Shown: positions 5,166-50,905 of the stretch, one piece after another
How the letters are laid out: every line of letters begins with the position of its first letter
Numbering within the stretch: position 1 is the first letter of the stretch
NCBI RefSeq assembly: GCF_023806635.1
Contig: NZ_JAMTDQ010000029.1
Span: forward strand, 1-64,000
Reading direction: 5' to 3'
Source of the DNA: Accumulibacter sp.
GTDB lineage: Bacteria > Pseudomonadota > Gammaproteobacteria > Burkholderiales > Rhodocyclaceae
Length of the DNA stretch: 64,000 nucleotides
Translations under genes and position numbers: made by a program
The notes under the pieces: model-generated
What the model was told of the DNA's origin: nothing
The model's database searches: none
The model's input: only the letters and a program-made list of their open reading frames with translations

Positions 5166-6106
5166 GCGCGGTCGCTCGCAGCGCTCGAGTCGGCGAGCAG
5201 CGCGCGGACCGACTCGATCGCTTCATCCAGATGGCTGTACTCGAGCGCGAACGCGGGGCAATGCTCGATGACGTCCGCCACAGCGTTGAACGAGATGGCG
5301 CCGAGGACCTCGTAGTTGAAGCTGTTGAAGGCGAGGTGCGCGAAGGCCTCCTCGGCCGGCAGGCGGCGGGTGCTCAACGCCGCACCCTGGCGAAAGCTGG
5401 GAAAGATGACCAGCCGCGGGCGTGCCGGCAGCCGGCGGGCGTCGACGCTGGTCTCGCCGGGAGCGAGGTGTGCCACGTCGCCCTTGCGGGTGCCCTTGTA
5501 GACCGGGCCGAGAATCACGTCGTCGGCATAGTCGCGAATGACGTCGATCGAACGGTTCTTCAGTGCCAGCGGCTTGAGCATCGGCCACAACTGGCCGCTG
5601 CGCGGACAGAGGACGCCGAACTCGTCGGACAGCAGGCGGAATCCACGCAGCATCATCGCCGCCGTCAGCGTGCTCTTGCCGGAACCAGGCGGCGCCGCCA
5701 TGATGACGCCGTGGTCGGCGAGCGCAAGGGCGCCGGCGTGCAGCAGGACGTGCTGGTTGAAGCGCTGCGCAAAGCACCAGTTGACGCCCCATTCGAAGTG
5801 CGCCAGTGCCTGCTCCTGGGGAAAGGGGTCGAAGGGCTGCACGCCGTCGATCAGGAAGCGGGACTGCGGGCGCAGCCAGGCGCGCAATCCCCGGCCGCGG
5901 CGGATTTGCGTATGGAAGTCGGCGAAGGCCGGTTCGACCACGGCAAAGGCGCCGTAAACGCGCTGCAGGTCGGCAACGAAGCCCGCGAGGTCGGAGGCCA
6001 CGCGCACGACGGCAGCACCATAGTCGAGCGTCAGCGAAGCACTGGCAAGACGCTGGCGGAGAATGAGGGGAGAGAGGTTGCGCAGGCGGAGCGGCTCGGC
6101 AGTCAT
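5162..6106 (-). CDS. HprK-related kinase A
   Basis: This 314-residue protein matches the HPr-rel-A kinase family. A Walker A loop, APPGSGKST, lies at residues 138-146, preceded by QHVLLHAGALALADHGVIM, and an acidic pair follows in LLSDEFGVL (161-162). These are the core features of HPr kinase/phosphorylase-like P-loop enzymes. True HprK phosphorylates a serine of HPr; related kinases in lasso-peptide clusters phosphorylate a peptide serine. The target here is unknown, and no HPr gene is in the window. It is coupled by ATGA overlaps to the PqqD-like gene upstream and the nucleotidyltransferase gene downstream, which indicates one functional unit. Confidence 0.85.
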   Translation of the reverse strand: MTAEPLRLRNLSPLILRQRLASASLTLDYGAAVVRVASDLAGFVADLQRVYGAFAVVEPAFADFHTQIRRGRGLRAWLRPQSRFLIDGVQPFDPFPQEQALAHFEWGVNWCFAQRFNQHVLLHAGALALADHGVIMAAPPGSGKSTLTAAMMLRGFRLLSDEFGVLCPRSGQLWPMLKPLALKNRSIDVIRDYADDVILGPVYKGTRKGDVAHLAPGETSVDARRLPARPRLVIFPSFRQGAALSTRRLPAEEAFAHLAFNSFNYEVLGAISFNAVADVIEHCPAFALEYSHLDEAIESVRALLADSSAASDRA

Positions 6107-6354
6107 CCGCCAAGCATGCCCATCTCCTGCAGTGAACGCAACACCTGACGGAGTTCGTCGGTGTCGGTATCGAGTTCGAGTTCGTCGCGCAGAAAGCGCA
6201 GCGCCCGATCCAGAGGCAGCGGCTGCTGGCCGTCGCCGATTTCGCTCAGTGCTTCGAAGATGATCGTGGCGGCCGGCGTGAGGATGTGCGTCTGCCAGTT
6301 TTTCTGATCGAATGCGACGCCACCTTCCCCCAGCCGGCGGTAAAGGGGGCGCAT
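6103..6354 (-). CDS. HPr-rel-A system PqqD-like peptide chaperone
   Basis: The 83-residue product (start ATG at 6354) has the PqqD-like winged-helix pattern: a short N-terminal strand region (YRRLGEGGVAFDQKNWQTHIL), a segment with FEALSEIGDG, and helices RALRFLRDELELD and LRQVLRSLQEMGML. PqqD-like proteins bind leader peptides of ribosomally made, modified peptides and present them to enzymes. A longer frame upstream encodes low-complexity Arg-rich residues and is unlikely to be translated. Its stop overlaps the kinase start by 4 bases. The short distance (49 bases) from the small exported-protein gene upstream fits a substrate-chaperone-kinase order. Confidence 0.75.
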   Translation of the reverse strand: MRPLYRRLGEGGVAFDQKNWQTHILTPAATIIFEALSEIGDGQQPLPLDRALRFLRDELELDTDTDELRQVLRSLQEMGMLGG

Positions 6355-6403
6355 CAGACTGCGGGCGGGGGTGCGTGCCCCGGAACGGACTGCCGCCGAT
6401 CGG

Positions 6404-6787
6404 TCACGAGATGAGGTTGGTATCCGGGTTGGCGTACGGTACACCCGAATTGATCGAGTTCCAGCACGACGCGTGTGCCACCGGCCGGGGTGCCGTGCCC
6501 GTGTTTTCGTAAACCAGGACATTCCCCTCTATGACATCGTCGGGGCCGCCCCCGTTGTTGACCGCCGGCTGGTACTCCCGCACCCAATCGTCATTCTGAT
6601 CCTTGGGAATAATGTACGGGATCGGGTTGCTGCCGTTCGCCTGCAGACCCCTCTCGACACATGCGTGCAGGCTGCTCGACGACACGGCCCTGCCGGTGGA
6701 AGGCAGAACGAAGATCGCCGGCACGGCCGCGGCCTTCTTCAGCAGCTTGCGCCGCTGCTCGGTTCTATCGTTTGAGGTCTCTGACAT
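6404..6787 (-). CDS. small exported protein, candidate substrate of the HPr-rel-A cassette
   Basis: I do not recognise this 127-residue protein by family. It starts MSETSNDRTEQRRKLLKKAA, where the Arg pair followed by a hydrophobic segment (AVPAIFVLPSTGRAVSSSS) resembles a Tat-type or atypical signal. The remainder is Asn-, Pro- and Gly-rich with two Cys residues (HACVERG, ASCWNS) and ends PDTNLIS, so the last residue is Ser. It is the first gene after a strong sigma-54 promoter and is followed by the PqqD-like protein and kinase, which makes it the natural candidate for their target. That role is inference. Confidence 0.6.
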   Translation of the reverse strand: MSETSNDRTEQRRKLLKKAAAVPAIFVLPSTGRAVSSSSLHACVERGLQANGSNPIPYIIPKDQNDDWVREYQPAVNNGGGPDDVIEGNVLVYENTGTAPRPVAHASCWNSINSGVPYANPDTNLIS

Positions 6788-6946
6788 GTGCTTTCCTTGG
6801 TATCGATTGCGGCCTGAGCAGAATCATTTTAGACGTTCCAGCCTGCGGATGTTTGCCTACTACATCACGCTCTGCCGAGAAAGCCTGCCATGACAGTCAC
6901 GGGGGCTTGCCACCCGGTGACCTCGTGCCTTGCTTTCCCCATTCAA

Positions 6947-6961
6947 GCAAGTTATGTGCCA
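6947..6961 (-). promoter_or_regulatory. sigma-54 promoter of the HPr-rel-A cassette
   Basis: On the minus strand the sequence is TGGCAC-ATAAC-TTGC, an exact match to the -24/-12 consensus with the required spacing. Transcription would start near 6935 and read into the small exported-protein gene. Sigma-54 promoters need an enhancer-binding activator; the operator at 7047-7063 is suitably placed about 120 bases upstream. The NifA motif TGT-N10-ACA is not present here, so a different activator is implied. Confidence 0.75.
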
Positions 6962-7046
6962 TACGGATTGAGAGGATGCAATCCTTCAGTAAATCATTGC
7001 CGTAGCATGTGATTCCACGGCTGCAGGAGGATTCGGTGGCGGGAAG

Positions 7047-7063
7047 TGTAAAAAAAATCGACA
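7047..7063. promoter_or_regulatory. candidate activator operator upstream of the sigma-54 promoter
   Basis: TGTAAAAAAAATCGACA is an AT-rich TGT...ACA element standing out from GC-rich surroundings, about 120 bases upstream of the predicted transcription start. From established knowledge, PEP-CTERM and exopolysaccharide genes in related floc-forming bacteria are driven by sigma-54 with the PrsK/PrsR two-component system, and similar AT-rich operators occur there. Assignment to PrsR is inference; the regulator gene is not in the window. Confidence 0.45.
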
Positions 7064-7189
7064 CCTGTCGCAGTCGCGGGGCTTGTGAACGCGGCTTTCG
7101 CCAGCAGGCCGGGAGGGCGGCCTCGAGCGCATCGGAGCCGCAAGCGAGGGCAGCGGCGGGCAGATCAGCCGACCACCGCCGTGTCGGCT

Positions 7190-9772
7190 TCACAGCTTCA
7201 GACGTTCGATCAGCTCGGTTTCCAGCCTGATGCGATTGGCGGTTTCGCCAAGATCGCCGCCGCTGATCAGGAAGGTGTCTTCGACGCGCTCGCCAAGGGT
7301 GGAGATCTTCGCCGTGTGCAGGTTGGCGCCATGTGCCGCCAGCGTCAGGGCGATCGTGTACAGCAGCCCGGGACGATCCGTCGCGCTGACCGAGAGGACG
7401 TAATGGGCGCCCTTCTCGTCTTCTTCGATGGTCACCAGTGGCGGTACCGGAAAGTTCCTCACCTGTCGCGACAGCCGTCCGCTGCCCGGCCCTTCGGGCG
7501 GCCCCTGGCGGCGCAGGCGGTCAGTCAGTTCGTGTTCGACGTAGCCGATCATGTCGCGGTCGTCGCCGCGCTCGCCGAGGTCGAGCAGCATGAAGGTGTC
7601 CAGCGCGTAGTGGTCGCGCGTGGTATGGATCTTGGCGTCCACGATGGTGTAGCCGGCGCGACTGAAGAAGCCGACCAGTCGCGCAAACAGGTCGCGCTGG
7701 TCGCGGGTGTAGACCAGCACTTCGAGACCTTCACCCTGCGGGTTGAGGCGTGCCCTGACCAGAGGCTCGTCGCGACGGATGCGGTAGTGCAGGGCACGCG
7801 CGTGCCAGGCGATCTCTTCCGCCGAATGGCGCATGAAGTACACCGTGTCGAGATGCTTCCACAGCCGCTGGTGAACCGAGTCGGGCAGGGCGAAGTAGCG
7901 CAGCAGCCGCACGGCGTGCTGCTGTCGTTCTTCGATCAGGCCTTGCCGGACCGGTGCCTGGCCGCCATCGAGCAGGGTGCGGCAGGTACTCCTGAATAGC
8001 TGCTCGAGCAACTGGCCCTTCCAGGTGTTCCAGACCTTCGGACTGGTGCCACGGATGTCGGCGACCGTAAACAGATAGAGGGCGATCAGTTTCCTTTCGT
8101 CGCCGACGGTCCGGGCGAAGGAGCTGACCACCTCAGGGTCGGCGATGTCCTGCTTCTGGGCGACGCTCGACATCAGCAGGTGGTGCCGTACCAACCAGAC
8201 GACCAGCTCGCTGTCCTCGGCAGCGACGGCGTGCGCCGCGCAGAACTCGGCGGCGTCGACCGCGCCGAGCTCAGAGTGGTCGCCACCGCGCCCCTTGGCG
8301 ATGTCGTGGAACAGGGCGGCGACATAGAGCACCCACTGGCGGGGGAAATCACTCATCAGCTCACTGCACAGCGGATACTCGTGGGTGAACTCATCGGAGA
8401 GGAAACGGCGCAGGTTGCGCAGCACGTGCAGGGTGTGCTGGTCAACCGTGTAGACGTGGAACAGATCGTGCTGCATCTGGCCGACGATCTTGCCGAAGTT
8501 CGGCAGGTAGCGACCGAGCAGGCCGAACTGGTTCATCCGCCGCAGTTCGTGCAGCACGCCGCGCGGTTGCTGCAGGATGGCGAGGAAGCAGCGGCGATTG
8601 TCGGCGTCGCGGCGGAAGGCGTCATCGATCAGCGTCCGCGCATGCCACAGGGCGCGCAGCGTGCGTGCCGTCATTCCCTGCAGATCGGCATGCTGCTGCA
8701 TCAGCAGGAAGGCTTCCAGCAGCGCCGCCGGCGTCTTCTGGAAGACGTCGTCGGCGGCGACGTCGAGCAGTTCGTGTGTCTTCCGGAAGCGCTCATTGAT
8801 CGGCGATGGCTCCTGCTCCGCCGGCGGCGAGATCGCTGCGCCGATGTTCTGCAGCAGGATGGTGTTCAGCTGCGTCACCATCTTCGCCGTCCGGTAGTAC
8901 TGCTGCATCAGCCGCTCGCTGGCGAGACGGGTCGCGGTCGCGACGCAACCCATGCGGCCGGCGAGCGCCGTCTGGTGGTCGAAGAGCAGCCGGTCCTCGC
9001 GCCTGCCGACGTGCAGGTGCAGGTGGCAGCGCAGACGCTGCAGGAAAGCCAGGCTGCGCAGCAGTTGCTCCTCCTCGTCGCGGGTGATGAAGGCGTGCCG
9101 GGCGAGATCCTCCCAGGAGTCGCCGAGGCCGGCGGCGCGCGTGATCCAGAGAATCGTCTGCAGATCGCGCAAGCCGCCGGGGGCTTCCTTGCAGTTGGGT
9201 TCCAGGGCGTAGGGCGAATCCTGGTAGCGGCGGTGGCGCTCCTCTTGCTCCATCCGCTTGGCGTCGAAGAAGGTCCCACGATCGAGCCCGTCACGAAGCT
9301 GCCGGCAAGCTTCCGCGAACAGCGTGCCGTCGCCGGTGAGCGGCCGCGCTTCGAGCAGGGCGGTGCAGATCGTCAGATCGTCGGCAGCGGCCTGCGAACA
9401 CTCGGCGACCGTGCGCACGCTGGGTGCGATCTCGAGACCGATGTCGTAGAACAGCGCGACGGCGAACTCGACGCGGCTGGTCAGCTCCGGGCCCGCTACC
9501 GCCGGCAGCAGGAGCAGGACATCGACGTCGGAGGCGGGGTAGAGTTCACCGCGGCCATAGCCGCCGACGGCCAGCAGTGCCATTTCCGGCGGCAGGGACA
9601 GCGCCTGCCAGAGGTCGCGCAGCACTTCGTCGACCAGGGCGCAGCGCGCCTGCAGCAGGTACGGCGCGTCGTCGTCGTCGAGAAAGCGCTGTCGCAATTC
9701 CGACTGGCCTGTCCGCAGCCGCGAGCGAGAACGCTCGACCAGAGACTGGCGACCGGTCTCGCCCATGATCAT
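7190..9772 (-). CDS. glnD: [protein-PII] uridylyltransferase/uridylyl-removing enzyme
   Basis: The 860-residue enzyme senses glutamine and adds or removes UMP on PII proteins (GlnB/GlnK), so it controls nitrogen assimilation and, through GlnK, often NifL. Domains in order: nucleotidyltransferase with [15 protein letters not shown] (about residues 60-160), a helical linker, an HD domain with [17 protein letters not shown] (about 430-520), and two C-terminal ACT domains ([16 protein letters not shown] and [18 protein letters not shown]) that bind glutamine. Length is normal. I start at 9772, where ATG overlaps the map stop (ATGA); a second ATG lies at 9766. It is translationally coupled to map upstream, an order common in betaproteobacteria. 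Confidence 0.97.
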
Positions 9773-10578
9773 CCGGCGTCGCCGATCCAGCCGGGTCGCG
9801 GCGGTGTGGCCGAGGAAACGGTGAGGACCTCGTAGCCGCCGTCGGTGACCAGGACGGTGTGCTCCCACTGCGCGGACAGGCTGTGGTCCTTGGTGACGAT
9901 GGTCCAGCCATCGGCCATCGTCTTGACGGCCGCCCTGCCGGCATTGATCATCGGCTCGATGGTGAAGATCATGCCTGCTTCAAGGGTGATGCCGGTGTGC
10001 GGCCGGCCGTAGTGCAGGACCTGTGGTTCCTCGTGAAACCTGGCGCCGATGCCGTGGCCGCAGAACTCGCGCACCACCGAGTAGCCGCACTGCTCGGCAT
10101 GCTTCTGGATCGCGTGGCCGATGTCACCGAGATGGGCGCCGGCGCGTACCTGGACGATGCCCAGCCACAGGCACTCGAAACTGACCTCGCACAGGCGCCG
10201 GGCCTGCAGCGAGGTTTCGCCGATCTGGAACATGCGGCTGCTGTCGCCGTGGTAGCCGTCACTGATCACCGTGATGTCGAGATTGACGATGTCGCCGTTG
10301 CGCAGCGGGCGGTCGCCAGGCACCCCGTGGCAGACCTGATGGTTGATCGAGGCGCAGATCGAATTGGGATAGGGCCGGTAGCCGGGCGGCGCGTAGTTGA
10401 GGGGCGCAGGAATGCACTTCTGGACGCCGACGATGTAGTCGTGACAGAGCCGGTCGAGTTCGCTGGTGGTGACGCCGGCCCGCACGTGTGGCGTGATGTA
10501 GTCGAGGACTTCCGCCGTGAGACGCCCGGCGACACGCATCCTGGCTATTTCCTGTGGGGTCTTGCGGCTGATGCTCAT
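9769..10578 (-). CDS. map: type I methionine aminopeptidase
   Basis: This 269-residue enzyme removes the initiator methionine from new proteins. It starts [20 protein letters not shown], close to the E. coli protein, which fixes the ATG at 10578. Metal ligands are visible in order: Asp in VNLDITV, Asp in YHGDSSRMF, His in [13 protein letters not shown], and Glu in IFTIEPM and [10 protein letters not shown]. It is transcribed away from rpsB, and the two genes share a 348-base divergent region, a widespread arrangement. glnD follows with an overlap of 4 bases. Confidence 0.97.
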
Positions 10579-40294: not shown

Positions 40295-40482
40295 ACATCG
40301 ACGCCGGCGTCACGGGCGCCTGGCAACACAGGCTGGCATCCGTTCGAATTCGACTGCCAACCAACGGCACGGGTCCGAGCCGGCCTGCCGCTGCTCTTCC
40401 GGATCTTCTCGCAACCGGATCGCAGCTTGACCGCCATGCGCCGCGGCCCATATACTCTGATGCCGTCGTTGGATTTCCTGCC

Positions 40483-40662
40483 GTGGTGAAACCAAACTAT
40501 CAGTTCGAGAAGCGTCAGCGAGAGCTGGAGAAAAAGCGTAAACAGGAGGAGAAGCGGCTGCGCGACCTCTCTGCCAGGACTCTGCCGGACGGCTCTCCCG
40601 GGCTGGACGCAGCCGCTCCGCCCGCATCGACCGCGGACGACGACACGGGCAAACCGGGCTGA
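40483..40662 (+). CDS. small conserved-looking charged protein
   Basis: The 59-residue product begins (GTG at 40483, or 40486) VKPNYQFEKRQRELEKKRKQ and continues with a very charged helix, then a Pro/Ala/Asp-rich tail. Short proteins with this start are common in betaproteobacteria; I know no function. It lies 188 bases after nifM and 13 before the helicase gene, so it may mark the old neighbour of the insertion point. The frame is open further upstream, but that part is unlike the family. Confidence 0.6.
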   Translation: MVKPNYQFEKRQRELEKKRKQEEKRLRDLSARTLPDGSPGLDAAAPPASTADDDTGKPG

Positions 40663-40675
40663 GGGGTGGCACCGG

Positions 40676-43567
40676 GTGGTCCTGCCCGTTGAGGTTAACC
40701 CGCCAGTGCTCTCTGCCTACCACACTAAGTACTTCGCCTACGAGTTGACCCGCCGTTGCCCGGTGGGGAGCGTCGAGAAGCTGGCTGGGGCGCTCGTGGA
40801 TGCGCAGGTAGACCTGAATCCGCATCAGGTCGATGCAGCCCTGTTTGCCTTCAACTCGCCGCTTTCGAGGGGGGCTCTCCTCGCCGACGAAGTGGGCCTG
40901 GGCAAGACCATCGAGGCGGGTTTGGTGCTTTCCCAGAAGTGGGCGGAGCGCAAGCGGCGCATCCTGGTCATTACCCCGTCCAACCTGCGCAAGCAGTGGT
41001 TTCAGGAACTGGCCGATAAATTCTTCCTGCCCTGCCGCATCCTCGAAGCCAAGCTCTACAACGCCGCAATTCGGCAAGGACAGTTCCGCCCCTTCGAGGT
41101 GCCCGAAATCGTCATCTGCTCCTATCAGTTCGCCAGGAACAAGGCCGGTGACGTGCAGGCCGTGCCGTGGGACCTGGTGGTGATCGACGAGGCCCACCGG
41201 CTGCGTAACGTCTACAAACCGTCGAACGTCATCGCGAACACGCTCAAGCTGGCTTTGGCCGGCAAGCACAAGCTGCTGCTCACGGCAACGCCCTTGCAGA
41301 ATTCCTTGCTGGAATTGTTCGCTCTGGTGAGCTTCATCGACGAACATGCCTTCGGCGACTTGAAGAGCTTCCGCGAACAGTTCGCCAACCGGAATCAGGA
41401 ACAGATGTTCCAGACGCTCAAGGCTCGCCTCAAGCCTGTCTGCCACCGCACCCTGCGCCGGCAGGTCACGGCTTACATCCCCTACACCGAGCGCCTGCCG
41501 CTGCTCGAGGAGTTCACGCCCGAGGACAGCGAAGACCAGCTCTACCATCTGGTCTCCGAGTACCTGCAACGGGACAACCTCGAGGCGCTGCCGGCCAGTC
41601 AGCGCAGCCTGATGACGCTGGTGCTGCGCAAGCTGCTGGCTTCTTCGACCTTCGCCATCGCGGGCGCGCTGACCGCGATTTCCAATCGCCTCAAGACCAA
41701 GCTGCGCAAGCAGGAGCCCGCCGAATCGCTGGAAGACGAGCTGGATCAGGATTACGAAGCGCTCGACGAAACTGCCGAGGAATGGACCGACGACGAGCCC
41801 GTTGAACTGCTTACCGCAGCCGACCGCCGGGCCGTTGAGCGGGAAATCGCCGACCTCGACACCTTTGCCCGACTGGCCTCATCCATCGAGCACAACGCCA
41901 AGGGCAAGGCGCTTCTCAAGGCGCTCAACATTGCTTTCGCCAAGGCGCAGGAGATCGGTGCCGAGGCGAAGGCCATCATCTTCACCGAATCGCGCCGCAC
42001 TCAGAGCTACTTGCTGCGCGTGTTGGCGGACAGTCCGTTTCGTGACGGCATCGTTCTCTTCAACGGTTCGAATACCGACGACGGCTCCAGACTGATCTAT
42101 AGCCGGTGGCTGGAGCGCCACCACGGCAGCGACCGCGTTACCGGCTCGCGCAGTGCCGACATGCGCTCGGCCCTGGTTGATTACTTCCGCGAGCAGGGCC
42201 GCATCATGATCGCCACCGAGGCGGGAGCCGAAGGCATCAACCTCCAGTTCTGTTCGTTGGTGGTGAATTACGACCTGCCCTGGAACCCGCAGCGCATCGA
42301 GCAGCGCATCGGCCGCTGCCATCGCTACGGGCAGAAGCACGATGTGGTGGTGGTGAATTTCCTTAACCGCAAGAATGCCGCCGATCAGCGCGTCTTCGAG
42401 TTGCTGTCGGAAAAGTTCCAACTTTTCGAAGGCGTCTTCGGTGCCAGCGACGAAGTGCTCGGCGCCATCGAATCTGGCGTCGATTTCGAGAAACGCATCG
42501 CGGCGATCTACCAGAACTGCCGCAAGCCCGAGGAGATCGCGACCGCCTTCAACCAGCTCCAGCTCGAACTGAGCCTGGAGATCAACGAGTCGATGACGCG
42601 CACGCGCCAGCAACTGCTGGAAGACTTCGACGACGAGGTACGCGAAAAACTCAAGGTGCGCGACGAAGCCTCGCGGACCTATCTCAACCGCTACGAACGC
42701 CTGCTGATGCAGCTCACGCGGCATGAACTGGAAGGCCAGGCCGAATTCCTGGGTGATGCCTCGTTTCGCCTGGCGGCTAGTCCTGTCCCGCAGCACGGCG
42801 CCGCCATCCCGCTGGGCCTGTATGAACTGCCGCGCCGTTCCGGCGAAGCCCATCTCTACCGTCTCAACCATCCGCTAGCCGAAGCTCTGATTGCAAATGC
42901 CAGGAGCCGCGACTTGCCGACTGCGGAGATTCATTTCGACTACGGCCAGCATGACGGCAAGGTCTCGTCCCTAGAGCCTTTGGTCGGCAAGACGGGCTGG
43001 CTGGAGCTTTCATCCTTTAGCGTGGAAGCGCTCGACCAGGCGGAAGATCATCTGATTTTCTCGGCCGTCACCGACGACGGCCAAACATTGGATGAAGAAG
43101 TCGCGCAGCGCCTGCTAACGCTGCCTTGCGCGTCCGCTCCTCGTTCTCTTGCGGTAGAGAACAAGGTTCAGGGCGCACTTGATACCGTTACCCAACATCG
43201 TCAGGCAACCATTCAAACCGTCATTGCAGAACGCAACGCCAGCTTCTTCGTGGCCGAAGCCGACAAGCTGGACGCCTGGGCCGATGACCTGAAGGTGGGA
43301 TTGGAACGCGAAATCAGAGAAATCGACCGCCAGATCAAGGACGCCCGTCGCGCTGCCACGACCGCCCTGACGCTGGAGGAAAAGCTAGCCGGGCAAAAGC
43401 AGATCAAGGCCCTCGAAGCCCAACGCAACCAGAAACGTCGTTCCCTGTTCGATGCGCAGGATCAGGTGGACAAGCAGCGTGAAGATTTGATTGCGGTCAT
43501 CGAAGGAAAGCTCAATCAGACCGCCACTCTGCAACAGTTGTTCATGCTGCGCTGGATACTGAACTGA
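40676..43567 (+). CDS. SNF2-family helicase-like ATPase of a defence-type operon
   Basis: The 963-residue protein is a superfamily 2 ATPase of the RapA/SNF2 kind. Walker A LLADEVGLGKTIEAGLVL (about residues 69-86), DEAH in VVIDEAHRLRNVYKPSN (about 171), TLRRQVTAYIPYTERLP, and the second motor half with ATEAGAEGINLQFCSLVVNYDLPWNPQRIEQRIGR are intact. A C-terminal coiled coil (about 850-940) precedes the end LQQLFMLRWILN. I know this family from restriction and phage-defence loci, where it may translocate on DNA. The GTG start at 40676 has GAGGGG upstream; a GTG at 40706 is an alternative. Four genes follow with gaps of -4 to 4 bases. Confidence 0.88.
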   Translation: MVLPVEVNPPVLSAYHTKYFAYELTRRCPVGSVEKLAGALVDAQVDLNPHQVDAALFAFNSPLSRGALLADEVGLGKTIEAGLVLSQKWAERKRRILVITPSNLRKQWFQELADKFFLPCRILEAKLYNAAIRQGQFRPFEVPEIVICSYQFARNKAGDVQAVPWDLVVIDEAHRLRNVYKPSNVIANTLKLALAGKHKLLLTATPLQNSLLELFALVSFIDEHAFGDLKSFREQFANRNQEQMFQTLKARLKPVCHRTLRRQVTAYIPYTERLPLLEEFTPEDSEDQLYHLVSEYLQRDNLEALPASQRSLMTLVLRKLLASSTFAIAGALTAISNRLKTKLRKQEPAESLEDELDQDYEALDETAEEWTDDEPVELLTAADRRAVEREIADLDTFARLASSIEHNAKGKALLKALNIAFAKAQEIGAEAKAIIFTESRRTQSYLLRVLADSPFRDGIVLFNGSNTDDGSRLIYSRWLERHHGSDRVTGSRSADMRSALVDYFREQGRIMIATEAGAEGINLQFCSLVVNYDLPWNPQRIEQRIGRCHRYGQKHDVVVVNFLNRKNAADQRVFELLSEKFQLFEGVFGASDEVLGAIESGVDFEKRIAAIYQNCRKPEEIATAFNQLQLELSLEINESMTRTRQQLLEDFDDEVREKLKVRDEASRTYLNRYERLLMQLTRHELEGQAEFLGDASFRLAASPVPQHGAAIPLGLYELPRRSGEAHLYRLNHPLAEALIANARSRDLPTAEIHFDYGQHDGKVSSLEPLVGKTGWLELSSFSVEALDQAEDHLIFSAVTDDGQTLDEEVAQRLLTLPCASAPRSLAVENKVQGALDTVTQHRQATIQTVIAERNASFFVAEADKLDAWADDLKVGLEREIREIDRQIKDARRAATTALTLEEKLAGQKQIKALEAQRNQKRRSLFDAQDQVDKQREDLIAVIEGKLNQTATLQQLFMLRWILN

Positions 43568-43571
43568 CACC

Positions 43572-45386
43572 ATGCCGACGCGGGACGAGAAAGTCGCCCA
43601 GATCGAAGCCGCACTGCGAGGCCGCTTCTTCGCCAACGTTCCGAAGGTTGTTAAGGCAGGGCGTGAGGGCTGGACTGAAGATCAGCATGATCTTGACCGA
43701 CTTTCGCGCGCATTGGCTGCCTACGCGCTGGTAGGTCGATGCGAGATTGACGATACGACGGCGGCGGGAGCCATCACGGATGGCAGCGACGACGGTGGAA
43801 TCGACGCCTTGTATTTCGACCGCACAGGCAACCGCCTGGTCCTGGTCCAGTCCAAGTTCAAGCGCACAGGCACTGCGCCGGCACAGGAGGAAGTTCTCAA
43901 GACCATCAACGGCGTCAAGGCGCTCCGGGCGAGGCAATTCAACAACTTCAACCTGGCCATCCGCAACCGGCTGGACGAGATCGAGGAAGCATTCGATACG
44001 CCAGGCGTAAGGCTCGAAGTGCTCCTGGTTTTTCTGGGGGATGCGATCGGACCGCATGCCACGGACGACCTGAATGCCTATCGGGATGAGCTGAACCAGT
44101 TCACGCAGGTGATGGACTGGCAGGCAACTGGGCTTGAGCCGGTCTTCGGATGGCTGATTGCGGAACAAGCGCCGGCGGCGGTCGATGACCAGATCACGCT
44201 TGAAAACTGGTCCGGCATCACCACTCCGCGCAAGGCGTTCTATGGCCAGATCAGCGCGGCGGCGCTGGCCAAACTTGTCGAAGACAACGGCAAGGCATTG
44301 TTCGAGCGCAATATCCGCCACTATCTGGGATCGGTCGGCGTCAATACAGCGATCGAAAAGACGGTGCGCACCCGCCCCGGTGATTTCTTCTATCTCAACA
44401 ACGGCATCACCGCCGTGGCCGAGACCATTACGCCGGCGGCGGGGACCAGCCAGAGGTGCGCCTTCGGCTTCAAGAAACTTTCCATCGTCAATGGTGCGCA
44501 GACCGCAGGCGCGATCTTCAACGCGACATTGGCCGGAAACGTTTCCCCCGATGCCAAGTTGCTGGTGACCCTCATCGAGATCGGCAACGGTGCCGACGAC
44601 ATCGGCCTGAAGATCACCCGCGCGCGCAATCACCAGAACGTGGTGCGCGGCGTCGATTTTGCCGCTCTCGATCCGAACCAGGAGCGCCTTCGTCAGGAGT
44701 TGGCGGCGGCCGGCATCACTTATTTCTACCGGCCGTCGGCGGAAGCGCGTGCCAGGCGGGAAGATGCCTTCACGCTGGAGGAGGCAGCCGTCGCCATGGC
44801 CTGCCTGGCCTTCAAGGTCAGGAGCGCCGCCGAGTTGCTTCAGCACCCCAGGCCGATTAACGCCGTTGATTTCGTGGTTACGGCCAAGAAGGAGATCGGC
44901 AGACTCTGGGAGCAGGACGGGACGCTTTACGGCCAGTTGTTCCCGGCGACCTTGTCGGGAGTGCGCGCCTGCCGGCTGGTACGCATCTACCGCTTCATTG
45001 ACCGCATCCTGGCGGACACCGAGCGCTCAGAAAATAGTTACTACCGCCGCATGTTCTTTCGGCATGGCCGCTACTTCATCATGGCGTTCGTCGCGCTACG
45101 ATCTGGGGATGTCATGAGCAAATCTCAGCTTGAGATTACAGCGGCGGATGAGACACTCCTTTCGCAGCGCACCAACGAGCTTTCCGAGCTGATCTACTCG
45201 GCGACAGAACCGCTACAGACGCTCAAGGGATACTTGGCCATCTTCCGAAATCTCACTGACGCTCAGCCACTGGCAGCTAGCGTGCTACAACGATTGGCGG
45301 AGGACGACGCGCGGCGACTGGCCACACAGCAGCTACAAGGTGCCCCTCAAGGCGTCCAGGCAGCGGATACTGAAAAGAGAAACTGA
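43572..45386 (+). CDS. AIPR-family abortive-infection protein with nuclease motif
   Basis: The 604-residue protein carries the AIPR domain (PF10592), first noted in abortive phage infection: ALFERNIRHYLGSVGVNTAIEKTV, FFYLNNGITAVAETI, KLSIVNGAQTAGAIFN and TRARNHQNVVRGVDFAALDP. Its N-terminal region has DGSDDGGIDALYF followed by LVLVQSKFKR (Asp78, Gln93 and Lys95), the D-QxK version of the PD-(D/E)XK nuclease core. It is therefore a likely DNA-cutting effector; this is inference from motifs. It lies 4 bases after the helicase and directly abuts the methyltransferase. Confidence 0.85.
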   Translation: MPTRDEKVAQIEAALRGRFFANVPKVVKAGREGWTEDQHDLDRLSRALAAYALVGRCEIDDTTAAGAITDGSDDGGIDALYFDRTGNRLVLVQSKFKRTGTAPAQEEVLKTINGVKALRARQFNNFNLAIRNRLDEIEEAFDTPGVRLEVLLVFLGDAIGPHATDDLNAYRDELNQFTQVMDWQATGLEPVFGWLIAEQAPAAVDDQITLENWSGITTPRKAFYGQISAAALAKLVEDNGKALFERNIRHYLGSVGVNTAIEKTVRTRPGDFFYLNNGITAVAETITPAAGTSQRCAFGFKKLSIVNGAQTAGAIFNATLAGNVSPDAKLLVTLIEIGNGADDIGLKITRARNHQNVVRGVDFAALDPNQERLRQELAAAGITYFYRPSAEARARREDAFTLEEAAVAMACLAFKVRSAAELLQHPRPINAVDFVVTAKKEIGRLWEQDGTLYGQLFPATLSGVRACRLVRIYRFIDRILADTERSENSYYRRMFFRHGRYFIMAFVALRSGDVMSKSQLEITAADETLLSQRTNELSELIYSATEPLQTLKGYLAIFRNLTDAQPLAASVLQRLAEDDARRLATQQLQGAPQGVQAADTEKRN

Positions 45387-47015
45387 ATGACCTCGAAGCA
45401 AAAACTCGAACTCACCTGGATCGGTAAAGAAAACCGACCGAAGCTGGAGCCGCGCATCCTGCTGGAAGACCCGACGAAGAGTTACCACGCCAGGCACCGT
45501 GGCGCCAGCGCCGACTTGTTCGACAATCGGCTGATCTTCGGCGACAACCTGCTGGCGCTGAAGGCGCTGGAGGGGGAGTTTTCCGGCAAGGTGAAATGCG
45601 TCTTCATCGACCCGCCCTACAACACCGGCAGCGCCTTCACCCATTACGACGATGGCGTGGAGCATTCCATCTGGCTGTCGCTGATGCGCGACCGGCTGGA
45701 GATCATCCGACGGCTGCTGTCCGACGATGGTTCGCTGTGGATCACCATCGACGACAACGAGGCGCACTATCTCAAGGTGCTGTGCGATGAGATGTTTGGG
45801 CGGGCAAACTACAAAACGACTGTCACGTGGCAGCGCAAGTACAGCGTCAGCAATAACTTCCAAGGTATCGCAACAATCTGCGACTTTGTTCTCGTCTATT
45901 CCAAAAGTGAGAAGTTTCAAAATAATCTGCTTCCTCGAAGCGAAGAGTCTGCCGCGCGGTACAGCAATCCAGATAAAGATCCGCGTGGGCCATGGAAAGC
46001 TGTTGACTACTTGAACCAAGTAACGCCGGAAAAGCGTCGAAATCTTTGCTACGACATCGTCAATCCCAATACGGGTGATGTTGTGAAAAACACCAAGAAA
46101 GCTTGGAAGTACGACCCGGAGACGCATAGTCGTCATGTCGATGAGAACCGCATCTGGTGGGGGCGTGATGGACGTAATACGGTGCCAGCGCTAAAGCTGT
46201 TTCTCTCCGAGGTACGGGACGGGATGACACCGCACAACTGGTGGCCCCACGAGGAGGTTGGACACACCGACGAGGCGAAGAAGGAAATGATTGGCTTGTA
46301 TGGTGCGCGCGATGTTTTCGATACGCCCAAGCCAGAGCGATTGCTGCAACGCATACTTGAAATAGCCACCAACCCCGGCGATCTTGTCCTCGACTCTTTC
46401 GCCGGTTCCGGCACCACCGGCGCCGTCGCTCACAAGATGGGCCGGCGCTGGATCATGGTCGAACTGGGCGAGCACTGCCACACCCACATCATCCCGCGTC
46501 TGCAAAAGGTCATCGACGGCGAAGACCAGGCCGGGATCAGCAAGGCGGTGACCTGGAAGGGCGGCGGCGGCTTCCGCTACTACCGCCTGGCGCCCTCACT
46601 GCTGGAAAAGGACAAGTGGGGCAACTGGGTCATCAATCACGACTACAACGCCGCCATGCTGGCCGAGGCGCTGTGCAAGCTCGAGGGCTTCACCTATGCG
46701 CCCTCCGATGCGGTGTATTGGCAGCACGGCCGTTCCACCGAGCGCGACTTCGTGTACGTGACCACGGCCAGCCTGACCCACGAGCAATTGCAGCAGATCT
46801 CCGACGAAGTGGGGCCGGATCGCTCGCTGTTGGTCCTCTGCACTGCCTTCCGCGCCAAGGCGGATGCGTATCCCAACTTGACGGTGAAGAAGATTCCCAA
46901 GCAGGTGCTGTCGCGCTGCGAATGGGGCCATGACGATTATTCCTTGCAGGTGGAGAACCTCCCCAAGGAGCCGCCCAAGCCGGGACAACAGATGCTTTTT
47001 GGCGAGGAGGGTTGA
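45387..47015 (+). CDS. site-specific DNA methyltransferase (type III Mod-like, beta class)
   Basis: The 542-residue enzyme has motif IV DPPYNTG (residues 75-81) ahead of motif I DSFAGSGTTG (336-345), the order of beta-class N6-adenine or N4-cytosine methyltransferases such as type III Mod subunits. LIFGDNLLALKAL precedes motif IV. The stretch between (about residues 140-320) should hold the target recognition domain and is visibly richer in A/T than its flanks, hinting at domain exchange. The enzyme would mark host DNA. The start directly abuts the AIPR stop codon. Confidence 0.92.
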   Translation: MTSKQKLELTWIGKENRPKLEPRILLEDPTKSYHARHRGASADLFDNRLIFGDNLLALKALEGEFSGKVKCVFIDPPYNTGSAFTHYDDGVEHSIWLSLMRDRLEIIRRLLSDDGSLWITIDDNEAHYLKVLCDEMFGRANYKTTVTWQRKYSVSNNFQGIATICDFVLVYSKSEKFQNNLLPRSEESAARYSNPDKDPRGPWKAVDYLNQVTPEKRRNLCYDIVNPNTGDVVKNTKKAWKYDPETHSRHVDENRIWWGRDGRNTVPALKLFLSEVRDGMTPHNWWPHEEVGHTDEAKKEMIGLYGARDVFDTPKPERLLQRILEIATNPGDLVLDSFAGSGTTGAVAHKMGRRWIMVELGEHCHTHIIPRLQKVIDGEDQAGISKAVTWKGGGGFRYYRLAPSLLEKDKWGNWVINHDYNAAMLAEALCKLEGFTYAPSDAVYWQHGRSTERDFVYVTTASLTHEQLQQISDEVGPDRSLLVLCTAFRAKADAYPNLTVKKIPKQVLSRCEWGHDDYSLQVENLPKEPPKPGQQMLFGEEG

Positions 47016-47018
47016 CTC

Positions 47019-48224
47019 GTGGCTACCCCGAAGCGAACCAAGGACACGCCCAGCGCCGTGGCGAGGAACGATACGAGCACGGCTGAGCTGCTCGCGGCTA
47101 TTCGCGACATTTGGGAATCGGCGCGCTTGCAGGCAGCACGATCCGTCAATTCGGCGTTGGTGCAGGCCAACTGGCTGATCGGCCGGCAGGTCGTCGAGGC
47201 CGAACAGAAGGGAAAATCGCGCGCGGCCTACAGCAGCCGCCTGCTGAAAACATTGTCCGAAACCTTGGAGAAGGACTATGGTAATGGTTTTTCCGTCAGT
47301 TCGTTGCAATATATGCGGGCCTTTTACCTTGGCTATCCGGCATTGCTGGGTATTCAACACGCGGCGGGTGTTGGATCGGAAATACAACACGCGGTGCGTG
47401 TTGAATCGGCAGGAGGAAGCCCTGAGGCGAAAAGTCACGCACTGTGTGACCTTCCCGTGTCGGCCACTGAGGCTGACTGGCAGCCGGGCCGCCTGCATGC
47501 CGGGCTATCGTGGACCCATTACCGGACCCTGCTGAAGGTACGGCGCCAGGAAGCGCGCGACTTCTACGAAATCGAGGCAATCCGTAACGGTTGGTCGGCA
47601 CGGCAACTTGAACGGCAGATCAACACCTTCCTCTTCGATCGCCTGCTCAAGAGTCGTGACAAGGCTGGCGTCCTGGCACTGGCCAACGAGGGGCTGGTAA
47701 CAACGCGCCCAACGGACGCCATAAAGGACCCCTATGTGCTGGAGTTTCTCGACTTGCCCGAGTCGCATCGTCTCGTCGAATCCCGCGTCGAGGAAGCGTT
47801 GATTTCACGCTTGCAGGACTTCCTGCTGGAGCTGGGCAGCGGCTTCGCCTTTATTGGCCGGCAGGTGCGGCTGACGCTGGAGGGCGACCATTTCTATCCC
47901 GACCTGGTCTTCTATCACGCGAAACTGAAGTGCTACGTGGTGATCGACCTCAAGGTCGAAAAGCTGACCCACGGCGACTTGGGTCAAATGCAGATGTACG
48001 TCAACTATTACGACCGCGAGATTGCCGAGCCAGGGGATCAGCCGACCATCGGATTGATTCTCTGCGCGGACAAGAACGAGGCGATGGTGCGTTACGTGCT
48101 GGACGAAAAGGCAAAGCAGATCTTTGCCAGCCGCTACCAGTTCCAATTGCCCAGCGAAGACGTATTGCGCGCTGAAATCAAACGCGAGATGGAAGAACTC
48201 GATTCCGGGAGCGCGCAGTCATGA
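47019..48224 (+). CDS. DUF1016/YhcG-family PD-(D/E)XK nuclease-like protein
   Basis: The 401-residue protein has the DUF1016 N-terminal helical domain (ARSVNSALVQANWLIGRQVVEAEQKGKSRAAY, FSVSSLQYMRAFYLGYP), then LSWTHYRTLLKVRRQEARDFYEIEAIRNGWSARQLERQI, and a C-terminal nuclease domain: FYPDLVFYHAKLKCYVVIDLKVEKLTHGDLGQMQMYVNYYD with Asp and Asp-x-Lys. Between the domains lies an insert (about residues 111-160) encoded by palindromic DNA. YhcG-like proteins are linked with restriction loci, but their action is unclear. It starts with GTG 3 bases after the methyltransferase gene and overlaps the next gene by 4 bases. Confidence 0.88.
   Translation: MATPKRTKDTPSAVARNDTSTAELLAAIRDIWESARLQAARSVNSALVQANWLIGRQVVEAEQKGKSRAAYSSRLLKTLSETLEKDYGNGFSVSSLQYMRAFYLGYPALLGIQHAAGVGSEIQHAVRVESAGGSPEAKSHALCDLPVSATEADWQPGRLHAGLSWTHYRTLLKVRRQEARDFYEIEAIRNGWSARQLERQINTFLFDRLLKSRDKAGVLALANEGLVTTRPTDAIKDPYVLEFLDLPESHRLVESRVEEALISRLQDFLLELGSGFAFIGRQVRLTLEGDHFYPDLVFYHAKLKCYVVIDLKVEKLTHGDLGQMQMYVNYYDREIAEPGDQPTIGLILCADKNEAMVRYVLDEKAKQIFASRYQFQLPSEDVLRAEIKREMEELDSGSAQS
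47353..47450. repeat. three palindromes inside the DUF1016 gene
   Basis: Within the interdomain insert three inverted repeats follow each other: CAACAC...GTGTTG (47355-47373), CAACAC...GTGTTG (47385-47403) and GTCACGCACTGTGTGAC (47434-47450). The first two are near copies of one unit (ATTCAACACGCGG / GCGTGTTGAAT), so together they form a larger mirror. The reading frame stays open through all of them. Confidence 0.6.
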
Positions 48225-50905
48225 CCCGCCACGTCAACGCCATCGCCGGACGCCTCAGTCTGCGTCATCCGCAGCGTCGCTCGCTGGAAATCCTCGACCG
48301 CATCACCGAGATTGCCCCGCCCCGCAAGGGGACGGATGTCCCGGCAATGCTGGAAGCGATCCGCTGCGAGTTCCCCTCGGTGACGGATTTCGAGCGTGAC
48401 TTTCCCTCCTTGTGCTTCGCCCTCGCCACCGGCGTGGGCAAGACGCGGCTGATGGGCGCTTTCATCAGCTACCTGCACCTGGCGCACCGCATCGACAACT
48501 TCTTCGTGCTGGCGCCGAACCTGACCATCTACAACAAGCTGATCGCCGACTTCAGCGACCGCAACCATCCCAAGTACGTGTTCCGCGGCATCGCGGAATT
48601 CGCCATCGATGCGCCCTCGATCATCACCGGCGACAACTACGACCAGCACGACCCGCGCAGCGGCACGCTTTTCGGCGGTGTGCGGATCAACATCTTCAAC
48701 ATCGCCAAGATCAATTCCGAAGTGCGCGGTGGCAAGTCGCCGCGCATCAAACGGCTGTCGGAATACATTGGCGAGAGCTACTTCGACTATCTGGCCGGCC
48801 TGCCGGACCTGGTGATGCTGATGGACGAATCGCATCGCTACCGCGCCAGCGCCGGGATTCGCGCCATCAACGAACTGAGGCCGATCCTGGGTTTGGAGCT
48901 GACCGCCACGCCGTTTGTGGAGACTGCGCGGGGCGCGACGCCCTTCAAGAATGTGATCGTCGACTACCCGCTTGGGCAGGCGATGAAGGACGGCTTCGTC
49001 AAGGAACCGGCCGTCGTGACGCGCAAGAACTTCAACCCGGCCGGCATGTCTGCGGAGGAGGTCGAGCGCCTCAAGCTGGAAGACGGCGTCCGCCTGCACG
49101 AAAGCGTGAAGGTGGAGTTGGAGACCTACGCACGCGCAAGCGACAAGCCGATCGTCAAGCCTTTCCTGCTGGTGATTGCCCGCGACACCACCCATGCTGG
49201 GCAACTTTCCGAGCTGATCAAGTCCGGCAGCTTCTTCGAGGGGCGTTACCGCGACAAGGTCATCCAAGTGGATTCGAGCAAGACTGGCGGGGAAGAAGAA
49301 GAGATGATCGACCGCCTGCTCAAGGTGGAACACGCCGACGAGCCGACGGAGATCGTGATTCACGTCAACATGCTCAAGGAAGGTTGGGACGTAACCAATC
49401 TCTACACCATTGTGCCGCTGCGGACCGCGAATGCCCGCATCCTCATTGAGCAATCCATCGGGCGCGGGCTGCGCCTGCCCTACGGCAAGCGCACTGGCGT
49501 CACGGCCGTGGATCGGCTGAACATCGTTGCCCATGACAGGTTTCAGGAAATCATCGCCGAGGCCAACAAGCCGGAGTCGGCGATCCACTTGCAGACCCTC
49601 GTGCTGGATGCGGATGCCCTCGGGCAGAAGACGACTACGGTGGTGTCGCAGTCGCAACTGGCCACCAAGCTGGGTTTGACGCCTGCCCACGCAACAAGTA
49701 GCACGACGGTAGCTGGGCAGGATCAGGCGCCTGTCTTTACCAAAGTGGAAGAGCAGAACGTCGCGCAGATCACTTACGAGGTCATCCGCAAGCTGGAAAA
49801 TCAGCCCCAGACGCTGCCCACTATCGAGTACCTGAAGAAACCGGAGATCCAGGCTGCCATCGTCAGGGCGGTCGAGGAGCAGCACCGGCCAACCCAACTG
49901 GAACTGGACGGGGTGACGAAGAAGCCGGACTTCGTCGCTGTGGTGGCGAAAACCATCGAGTTGGTCACGCAACAGACCATCGACATTCCGCGTATTCTGG
50001 TGGTGCCCAAGGGCGAAGTGAAATCCGGCTTCAAACCGTTCACACTCGATCTCTCCACGCTCAAGTACCCGGCCGTATCCGACGAGCTTTGGATTCAGCA
50101 CCTGCGCACCAATCAACTGGAAGTGGTGTCGCTGGGCCACGGTGGCATCGAGGAAGCACGGCTGGAAGACTACGTGGTCAGCGGCTTGGTCGATTTCGAC
50201 GACGTTTCCTACGACGAAAACGCCGATCTGCTCTACGACCTGGCTGCCCAGACAGTGCAGCATTTCAAGGGCTACCTGTCCGATGAGGACACCCGCAAGG
50301 TACTGCGCTGTTACCAGCGCGACATCGCGCGGTTCATTCATATCCAGATGCAGGCGCATTACTGGGAGGACGTGGCCGGCTACGAGGTAAGAATCAGCAA
50401 GGGCTTTTCGGAGTTGAAGCAGAGCGCCTACACCCATTCCGTGCATGAACCGCCCGCCAACTACCGCGTGGAGCCGGCGGACAAGAGCAAGATGGCGAAG
50501 TACCTATTCGGCGGCTTCCACCGTTGTCTTTATCCAGTGCAGAAGTTTGATTCAGACGCGGAGCGTAAGCTGGCGGTGATTCTGGAGCGCGAGTCCAGCA
50601 AGTGGTTCAAGCCTGCCAAGGGCCAGTTTCACATTTATTACCAGAATGGCGCAGATCATCTGGAGTATCAGCCAGACTTCGTTGCTGAAGCGGCTGCAAC
50701 GATCTACATGCTGGAAGCTAAGAAGCGCACGGAGCTTGAAGACCTGATTGTCATTGCCAAGAAGGAAGCCGCCGCCAAGTGGTGCGCGAATGCCTCAGAC
50801 CATGCGGGAAGTTGCGGTGGCAAGCCTTGGCGTTACGTGCTGATCCCGCACGATGCGATCGCTGAGAACATGACGCTTGAGGGGTTTGCGGCACGGTTTG
50901 GTTGA
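48221..50905 (+). CDS. type III restriction-like helicase with C-terminal nuclease (Res-like)
   Basis: The 894-residue protein has an SF2 helicase core: Walker A FALATGVGKTRLMGAF (about residues 66-81), a DESH box in VMLMDESHRYRASAG (about 201), ELTATPFVET, and motif VI SIGRGLRLPYGKRTG. The C-terminus has YQPDFVAEA and YMLEAKKRTE (about 817-835), a PD-ExK nuclease site, as in type III Res subunits. With the Mod-like protein two genes upstream it would form a restriction-modification pair. It is the last gene of the five-gene operon and faces rnfH convergently across 83 bases. Confidence 0.92.
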   Translation: MTRHVNAIAGRLSLRHPQRRSLEILDRITEIAPPRKGTDVPAMLEAIRCEFPSVTDFERDFPSLCFALATGVGKTRLMGAFISYLHLAHRIDNFFVLAPNLTIYNKLIADFSDRNHPKYVFRGIAEFAIDAPSIITGDNYDQHDPRSGTLFGGVRINIFNIAKINSEVRGGKSPRIKRLSEYIGESYFDYLAGLPDLVMLMDESHRYRASAGIRAINELRPILGLELTATPFVETARGATPFKNVIVDYPLGQAMKDGFVKEPAVVTRKNFNPAGMSAEEVERLKLEDGVRLHESVKVELETYARASDKPIVKPFLLVIARDTTHAGQLSELIKSGSFFEGRYRDKVIQVDSSKTGGEEEEMIDRLLKVEHADEPTEIVIHVNMLKEGWDVTNLYTIVPLRTANARILIEQSIGRGLRLPYGKRTGVTAVDRLNIVAHDRFQEIIAEANKPESAIHLQTLVLDADALGQKTTTVVSQSQLATKLGLTPAHATSSTTVAGQDQAPVFTKVEEQNVAQITYEVIRKLENQPQTLPTIEYLKKPEIQAAIVRAVEEQHRPTQLELDGVTKKPDFVAVVAKTIELVTQQTIDIPRILVVPKGEVKSGFKPFTLDLSTLKYPAVSDELWIQHLRTNQLEVVSLGHGGIEEARLEDYVVSGLVDFDDVSYDENADLLYDLAAQTVQHFKGYLSDEDTRKVLRCYQRDIARFIHIQMQAHYWEDVAGYEVRISKGFSELKQSAYTHSVHEPPANYRVEPADKSKMAKYLFGGFHRCLYPVQKFDSDAERKLAVILERESSKWFKPAKGQFHIYYQNGADHLEYQPDFVAEAAATIYMLEAKKRTELEDLIVIAKKEAAAKWCANASDHAGSCGGKPWRYVLIPHDAIAENMTLEGFAARFG

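Follow-up and report, generated by a model that had tools for sequence, protein, structure and literature searches.

A probable type III-class restriction-modification subtype with an upstream SNF2-family gene and two predicted cargo slots in Accumulibacter

The window analyzed here, a 64,000-nucleotide stretch of DNA from Accumulibacter sp. (Rhodocyclaceae; RefSeq assembly GCF_023806635.1, contig NZ_JAMTDQ010000029.1, positions 1 to 64,000 of the forward strand), contains a compact group of five putative defense genes encoding an SNF2-family protein, an AIPR protein, a methyltransferase (Mod), a DUF1016 protein and a restriction subunit (Res), the second and fourth of which appear to be exchangeable insertions in a type III-class restriction-modification (R-M) locus. 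All five open reading frames (ORFs) are intact and lie on a single strand with intergenic gaps of 4, 0, 3 and -4 bases; the coordinates were checked in the window and agree with those of a preliminary description made from the sequence alone. As proposed in that description, the five genes probably form one transcript. The features of the locus are the following.

40427..40456, + strand: candidate sigma-70-like promoter, about 220 bases 5' of the first start codon, with 10 of 12 consensus matches
40676..43567, + strand: SNF2-family (RapA/DrmD-like) protein, GTG start, 963 amino acids (aa), first gene of the predicted core
43572..45386, + strand: AIPR protein, predicted cargo of slot A, 604 aa, with an N-terminal D-G-x-D / QxK nuclease-like motif
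45387..47015, + strand: Mod, type III-class adenine methyltransferase, 542 aa
45807..46346, + strand: predicted target-recognition region of Mod, approximately residues 141-320
47019..48224, + strand: DUF1016 protein (YhcG-type PD-(D/E)XK nuclease), predicted cargo of slot B, GTG start, 401 aa
48221..50905, + strand: Res, type III-class restriction subunit, 894 aa, with an SF2 ATPase and a C-terminal PD-ExK motif

Scans with Pfam, PADLOC and NCBIfam models agree with the family names originally given to these genes, and no single PADLOC or NCBIfam model spans all five. The SNF2 protein matches Pfam SNF2-rel_dom (3.6e-35) and Helicase_C; the top PADLOC model is DrmD (PDLC02619, 681.6 bits), the NCBIfam model DISARM_DrmD_b scores 687.8 bits, below its equivalog cut-off of 950, and the closest solved structure by sequence is RapA. 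Among aligned relatives (here and below, with the window's own protein included), the Walker A motif is present in 41 of 42 sequences and the DEAH motif in all 42. Mod matches N6_N4_Mtase (3.2e-47) and PADLOC MTase_III (PDLC03636, 732.6 bits); among solved structures, it comes closest in sequence to the Mod protein 6k0w and to that of EcoP15I (4zcf), and the DPPY and FxGxG positions are kept in 75 to 79 of the 79 relatives. Res matches ResIII (6.3e-19) and PADLOC REase_III (PDLC03648, 693.4 bits), shows similarity to EcoP15I Res (4zcf_C, E 1.3e-6, 29.9 bits) and shares the conserved ATPase motifs TGVGKT and DESH with its aligned relatives. The MTase_III and REase_III matches bear out the type III-like character of this pair, and the assignment of the locus to defense holds as well. 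The AIPR protein (Pfam AIPR, 2.3e-36) scores 111.2 bits with the PADLOC model for AbiU and 35 bits with that for MzaE, and 43.5 with NCBIfam MzaE, for which the cut-off is 1050; the DUF1016 protein (YhcG_C, 8.2e-59; DUF1016_N, 1.7e-38) also satisfies the PADLOC single-gene candidate PDC-S02 at 454.2 bits, a model that spans one gene only. The nuclease motifs noticed initially are present and conserved in AIPR (D74, D78, Q93 and K95 in 18/18) and in Res (P818 and D819 in 64/65, E832 and K834 in 65/65); in the DUF1016 protein, D295 and K312 are likewise conserved (17/17), and D310 is found in only 11 of 17.

A scan of genome contigs with Mod yielded at least 565 confirmed matches, the best 80 of which are all at 63% identity or higher and therefore describe the subfamily of the window (L005 and L006 in this set are near-copies). 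These Mod-anchored loci come from Pseudomonadota, cyanobacteria, Planctomycetota, Akkermansia, Kiritimatiellota, Acidobacteriia, Nitrospira, Desulfobacteraceae, Armatimonadota, Anaerolineae and others. Res is encoded downstream of Mod in all 61 loci that extend for 4 kb or more on the 3' side, and SNF2 upstream of Mod in 34 of the 48 loci with at least 9 kb on the 5' side, where fragments of SNF2 were counted and the same order and strand were required.

The same arrangement is recovered with two further queries, each run against 398 Pseudomonadota genomes. The Res query (E <= 1e-60) finds matches in 21 genomes, own included; among the other 20, flanks were read for 17 and for G061, and G136 and G266, whose contigs break off immediately before Res, were left out. 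Among the non-own loci, 12 have 4 kb or more of sequence 5' of Mod, and SNF2 lies upstream in the same order in 10 of these; the exceptions are L121 and L123, and in the latter the next gene upstream encodes a class I tRNA synthetase. The SNF2 query (E <= 1e-150) finds 20 places in 19 genomes, own included. Apart from three places with contigs that end too early (G030, G100 and G001), the gene is followed by a type III-class Mod in 17 of 17 cases: 12 times by a Mod of the window's subtype, twice by a canonical one (G289 and G304) and three times by a member of a larger type III family. A matching Res is present at 11 of the 12 places with a Mod of the window's subtype, and at the remaining one, in G061, the contig ends within Mod. 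The two queries share 13 genomes, compared to 1.0 expected (p 6e-15, without correction for kinship). Of the 398 genomes, 43 encode the canonical Res family, and, by position, the window-type SNF2 is beside it in G289 and G304 only; for this SNF2 subfamily, the comparison of 10/12 with 2/43, the 43 being judged by position and not by flanks, gives a Fisher p of 1.4e-7. The core order exceeds chance: it recurs across many phyla and from two further queries. Evolutionary distances are correlated for SNF2 and Res (rho 0.85, 36 loci), for the Mod core and Res (0.73, 64 loci) and for SNF2 and the Mod core (0.68, 41 loci). The three members of the larger family are L171 (G138), L176 (G341) and L177 (G394 C9), where the SNF2 subfamily precedes methylases and Res proteins of PDLC03646/PDLC03654; in L171, the Gabija genes GajA and GajB are located downstream of Res.

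The position between SNF2 and Mod (slot A) and that between Mod and Res (slot B) are filled differently from locus to locus. In the Mod-anchored set, 13 of 48 loci have AIPR on the 5' side of Mod and 15 of 61 have DUF1016 on its 3' side, but the two are found together in only 3 of 80 (L008, L010 and L066), L066 having the identical five genes in the identical order. According to Pfam scans of one representative of each BLAST cluster of slot proteins, slot A can hold AIPR, DUF2130, SMC/AAA ATPases, AAA with subtilase, M78-HTH, KilA-N, Bro-N, KwaB, GMT-wHTH with DUF5131, GmrSD, SIR2 and Schlafen AlbA, and slot B can hold DUF1016, RhuM, Fic, zeta toxin, PDDEXK_3, HepT and Abi_2 (slot B of L063, with both DUF1016 and RhuM, is labeled DUF1016). 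Most clusters of at least three members are confined to one slot, with the exception of HepT, Schlafen and SMC-like clusters and one DUF1016 fragment; in L128, a RhuM gene occupies slot A. In one batch of slot proteins, 5 of 10 had no Pfam match or none at E <= 0.01.

When slot B contents are mapped on a quick tree of Res (65 rows, 59 of them labeled, the other 6 uncounted; 18 of 61 inner branches open), at least 27 changes are required, compared to a least possible number of 9 and a mean of 30.4 in shuffles. The DUF1016 state is hardly clustered on this tree (11 changes vs 12.8, 58/500 shuffles), and the presence of AIPR in slot A requires at least 9 changes among 37 labeled rows (counted without shuffles). 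Even the set of seven rows that contains the window includes four DUF1016, two Fic and one PDDEXK_3 in slot B. The distances of SNF2 and AIPR are uncorrelated (0.02, 10 loci). These comparisons show that SNF2, the Mod core and Res co-diverge and that slot B genes turn over fast, with AIPR and DUF1016 behaving as exchangeable cargo of two internal slots.

The recognition region of Mod varies as well. Residues 141-320 form a block in which the mean identity of 20-residue blocks is 29-55%, compared to 60-97% in the surrounding sequence (last two residues excluded). Distances in this region show no positive correlation with those of SNF2, the Mod core or Res (-0.08 to -0.02) and are weakly correlated with those of AIPR (0.23). 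Among pairs of loci with more than 85% identity in Res, 36 of 42 have recognition regions below 60%. The recognition block of the window is 82-98% identical to those of L001-L004 and L015 (in 45-residue segments); for L007-L010, the flanks of Mod are 82-100% identical to the window (last two residues excluded) and the recognition block 27-55%. The Mod recognition region is thus swapped between loci independently of the remaining core.

The view of the five genes as one system, put forward in the preliminary description, is not supported by these counts; we replace it with a core of the type III class, in most cases comprising three genes, that has two exchange slots. Of the three components that were considered extra to a type III system, AIPR and DUF1016 are indeed exchangeable and usually absent beside Mod and Res, whereas SNF2 belongs with this pair in most relatives; a search for the five-gene order, as had been suggested, finds the core order across many phyla and all five genes in order in L066. 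Our interpretation is that the locus represents a type III-class R-M subtype, usually with an SNF2 translocase as the third core gene, and two slots for cargo that acts as a second line of defense; we assign this statement as a whole a probability of about 0.6. The parts differ in strength. The anatomy of a core with slots, SNF2-(A)-Mod-(B)-Res, is predicted with high confidence. That SNF2 takes a working part in the R-M machinery is favored by a narrow margin, and the second-line role of the cargo is proposed tentatively, by analogy. Because related bacteria fill the two inner positions with differing anti-virus genes, the swappable slots suggest an immune platform into which genes are plugged, as opposed to a fixed machine of five parts.

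In type III enzymes, Mod marks one adenine, on a single strand of an asymmetric site, and Res, switched on by ATP at unmarked sites, cuts, for which two oppositely oriented sites are required. By extension from these enzymes, Mod of the window would bind an asymmetric site and methylate an adenine there, and at an unmethylated site the Mod-bound Res, with its ATPase and nuclease, would be activated, travel along DNA and cut. The kinship with RapA and DrmD suggests that the SNF2 protein is a motor that travels on duplex DNA and may aid Res, e.g., by removing bound proteins or through communication over long distances. The nuclease-like AIPR and DUF1016 proteins might act upon engagement of phage DNA or a block of restriction, by analogy with PrrC, which is encoded beside EcoprrI (PMC2610378 and PMC3710099).

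Several observations weigh against this interpretation. SNF2 is missing upstream in 14 of the 48 Mod-anchored loci, and a search of the respective genomes at E <= 1e-60, a set without a positive control, found it elsewhere in none of the 14, so that Mod and Res can exist without SNF2. Slot B contents change slightly less often than at random (9 of 200 shuffles are as low), and the state without cargo is clustered on the Res tree (12 changes vs 19.5; 0 of 500 shuffles). AIPR distances follow those of the Mod core (0.52, 18 loci) and Res (0.50, 17 loci), and DUF1016 distances correlate with those of SNF2, the Mod core and Res at 0.39 to 0.42. Furthermore, eight cyanobacterial loci (L025, L027, L028, L030, L032, L038, L040 and L041) keep AIPR-Mod-Res with no upstream SNF2 seen, so in this lineage AIPR is steadier than plain cargo; AIPR of L028 is partial, and L051 lacks both AIPR and an upstream SNF2. 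With regard to individual loci without upstream SNF2, L032 has a distant SNF2-type gene downstream on the opposite strand, and in L001 a 1903-aa ORF (4277-9988) with no Pfam match at E <= 0.001 lies directly 5' of Mod.

The alternative that survives best is a compact defense island, in which unrelated defense genes, SNF2 among them, have gathered near an ordinary two-gene type III pair. The loci that lack SNF2 fit this possibility, as does the membership of the slot genes in typical defense and toxin families, and genes of this kind are known to interrupt R-M loci (PMC2610378 and PMC3710099). However, SNF2 has the same order and strand wherever it was counted (a requirement of the count itself, with the distant downstream gene of L032 as the exception), co-diverges with Res (rho 0.85), and, at all testable places, precedes a type III-class Mod, so that we consider an island unlikely. 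A dedicated five-gene machine, with all proteins in a single complex or pathway, is less probable still. It could account for the gapless junctions, for the identical order in L066 and for the presence of AIPR upstream and DUF1016 downstream of Mod in L008 and L010, but is rejected as the principal interpretation because AIPR and DUF1016 are exchanged: they rarely occur together, slot B changes fast on the Res tree, and SNF2 and AIPR distances are uncorrelated. Even L010, a near relative of the window with identities of 93% in Res and 96% in DUF1016, has an AIPR protein that is only 33% identical, with further genes between SNF2 and AIPR.

The probability that the locus is a class 1 DISARM system or its derivative is negligible: DrmD models are the top-scoring ones for SNF2 and class 1 DISARM likewise pairs DrmD with an adenine methylase, but the SNF2 score is below the equivalog cut-off, Mod and Res are of the type III class, and DISARM is refuted at this locus, in agreement with the preliminary description, because drmA and drmB are missing from the contig, on which the DrmA model matches nothing but SNF2 and MZB/DUF1998 is without a match (no search was made for drmC). 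Nor do hallmarks of BREX, Zorya or Hma appear among the 25 best families for each of the five proteins, where only cross-matches of SNF2 are found (BrxHI/BrxHII, 243.8; HmaA, 171.4; ZorD, 121.6 bits in PADLOC), in line with the preliminary description as regards BREX and Zorya. Hma is rejected given that it carries an m5C methyltransferase, according to PMC8565338, and Prevotella intermedia Pin17FIII, likewise with an upstream SNF2 helicase, is set aside as an enzyme described as type IIG in PMC5608340.

Insertions in R-M loci are a close precedent for the slots. The rlo genes inserted in type I loci and prrC beside EcoprrI are similarly toxin- or Abi-type genes that interrupt R-M genes, and several families, including RhuM and Fic/Doc, are shared with the loci analyzed here; for RloC, a link with a type I or III system exists in 8 of 73 cases (PMC2610378 and PMC3710099, the rlo insertions and RloC count being from the former). 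In contrast, the window combines a type III-class core, SNF2 and two slots, with turnover measured on a tree. In the accessible part of the open-access literature, no description of SNF2, Mod and Res as a unit was found, which does not amount to absence from print.

The window resembles the type III systems EcoP15I and EcoP1I in having an adenine methylase with a central, exchangeable recognition region and a Res with an SF2 ATPase and a C-terminal PD-(D/E)XK motif, as well as in the pairing of Mod with Res throughout the testable loci. It differs from EcoP15I in that the similarity of Res is weak, a SNF2 gene is present in front, and there are two cargo slots. The two-gene picture of type III restriction derives from EcoP1I and EcoP15I; the absence of a second motor gene, which is part of this picture, applies neither to the window nor to the 34 relatives with upstream SNF2.

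Canonical type III loci share the layout. The genome of the window has two of them, namely C59 (L181), with the gene order helicase - DUF4391 - Mod - DarT - macro - Res, and C113 (L182), helicase - DUF4391 - Mod - Res. The helicases match the PADLOC model C3a139, labeled HKD+Snf2, at 352 and 394 bits; Pfam finds the SNF2 and Helicase_C parts but not a phospholipase-D domain. As in the window, an SNF2-type helicase comes first, followed by a single gene before Mod, Mod, optional cargo and Res; unlike in the window, the helicase is C3a139, slot A contains DUF4391 (identified solely in these two loci), and Res belongs to PDLC03647. Among 18 canonical loci picked for upstream room from the 43 genomes mentioned above, 14 encode a relative of the C59/C113 helicase upstream of Mod (the others are L185, L186, L201 and L202), and the two-gene makeup as the defining feature of type III systems is accordingly in doubt. 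It is conceivable, although somewhat unlikely, that type III loci at large are mostly three-part platforms, consisting of an SNF2-family translocase, Mod and Res, with exchange sites for effectors that the core would gate. If so, one recognition core could be re-armed with nucleases, toxins or proteases, and, should SNF2 be a true third part, the two-gene picture would cover just one form of type III restriction. The slots also provide a natural series in which near-identical restriction cores carry differing cargo, so that one can measure directly what each cargo does and how far this depends on the core, and are a place to seek unknown defense genes. Another candidate defense locus in the same genome is L184 (G000 C57, 4101-12245), where a DpdE-like helicase (729.5 bits) adjoins a 1770-aa ORF containing an MZB (DUF1998) domain.

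The G+C content is 59-63% across 40 to 52 kb of the window (in 2-kb steps), compared to 65-70% in the 6 kb before and the 12 kb after the operon. From their translations, the flanking genes are presumably a nif cluster (nifV to nifM) on one side and, on the other strand, an rnf cluster. In G416, from the same genus, nifM is located about 35 bases from rnfH, which is as expected for the site without the operon. Two further members of the genus retain traces of it: G407 (L146) has a decayed copy with the same rnfH junction, in which SNF2 is in pieces, Mod and DUF1016 are partial, Res is complete at 93.6% identity and no match to AIPR is found, and in G412 (L137) pieces of SNF2 (residues 75-215) follow nifM. 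Given the site without the operon, the decayed copy and the remnant, the operon seems to be a long-term resident of the nif-rnf site in this genus that is decaying in some members. Between the presumed nifM and the operon, the window also contains the end of a lysine- and glutamate-rich ORF (40485-40662), and a similar ORF is found at the matching place in G412 (L137, 17710-18138). The sigma-70-like promoter candidate in this region is weak because such sites are no more numerous there than in shuffled sequences. Phase variation by simple repeats is rejected: the repeats in the operon are short and low-scoring, of about 2-4 copies, and nothing more is seen.

A phage origin is rejected because none of 50,697 phage records matches Res at E <= 1e-20. 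Among 72,556 plasmid records, 33 match Res at E <= 1e-40, and three plasmid loci have the following gene orders: SNF2 - AIPR - HTH - small ORF - VapC - Mod - small ORF - Res in Deinococcus, SNF2 - unannotated 362-aa ORF - Mod - Res in Roseomonas, and SNF2 - AAA - DUF4276 - Mod - transposase (on the opposite strand) - Res in Aeromonas.

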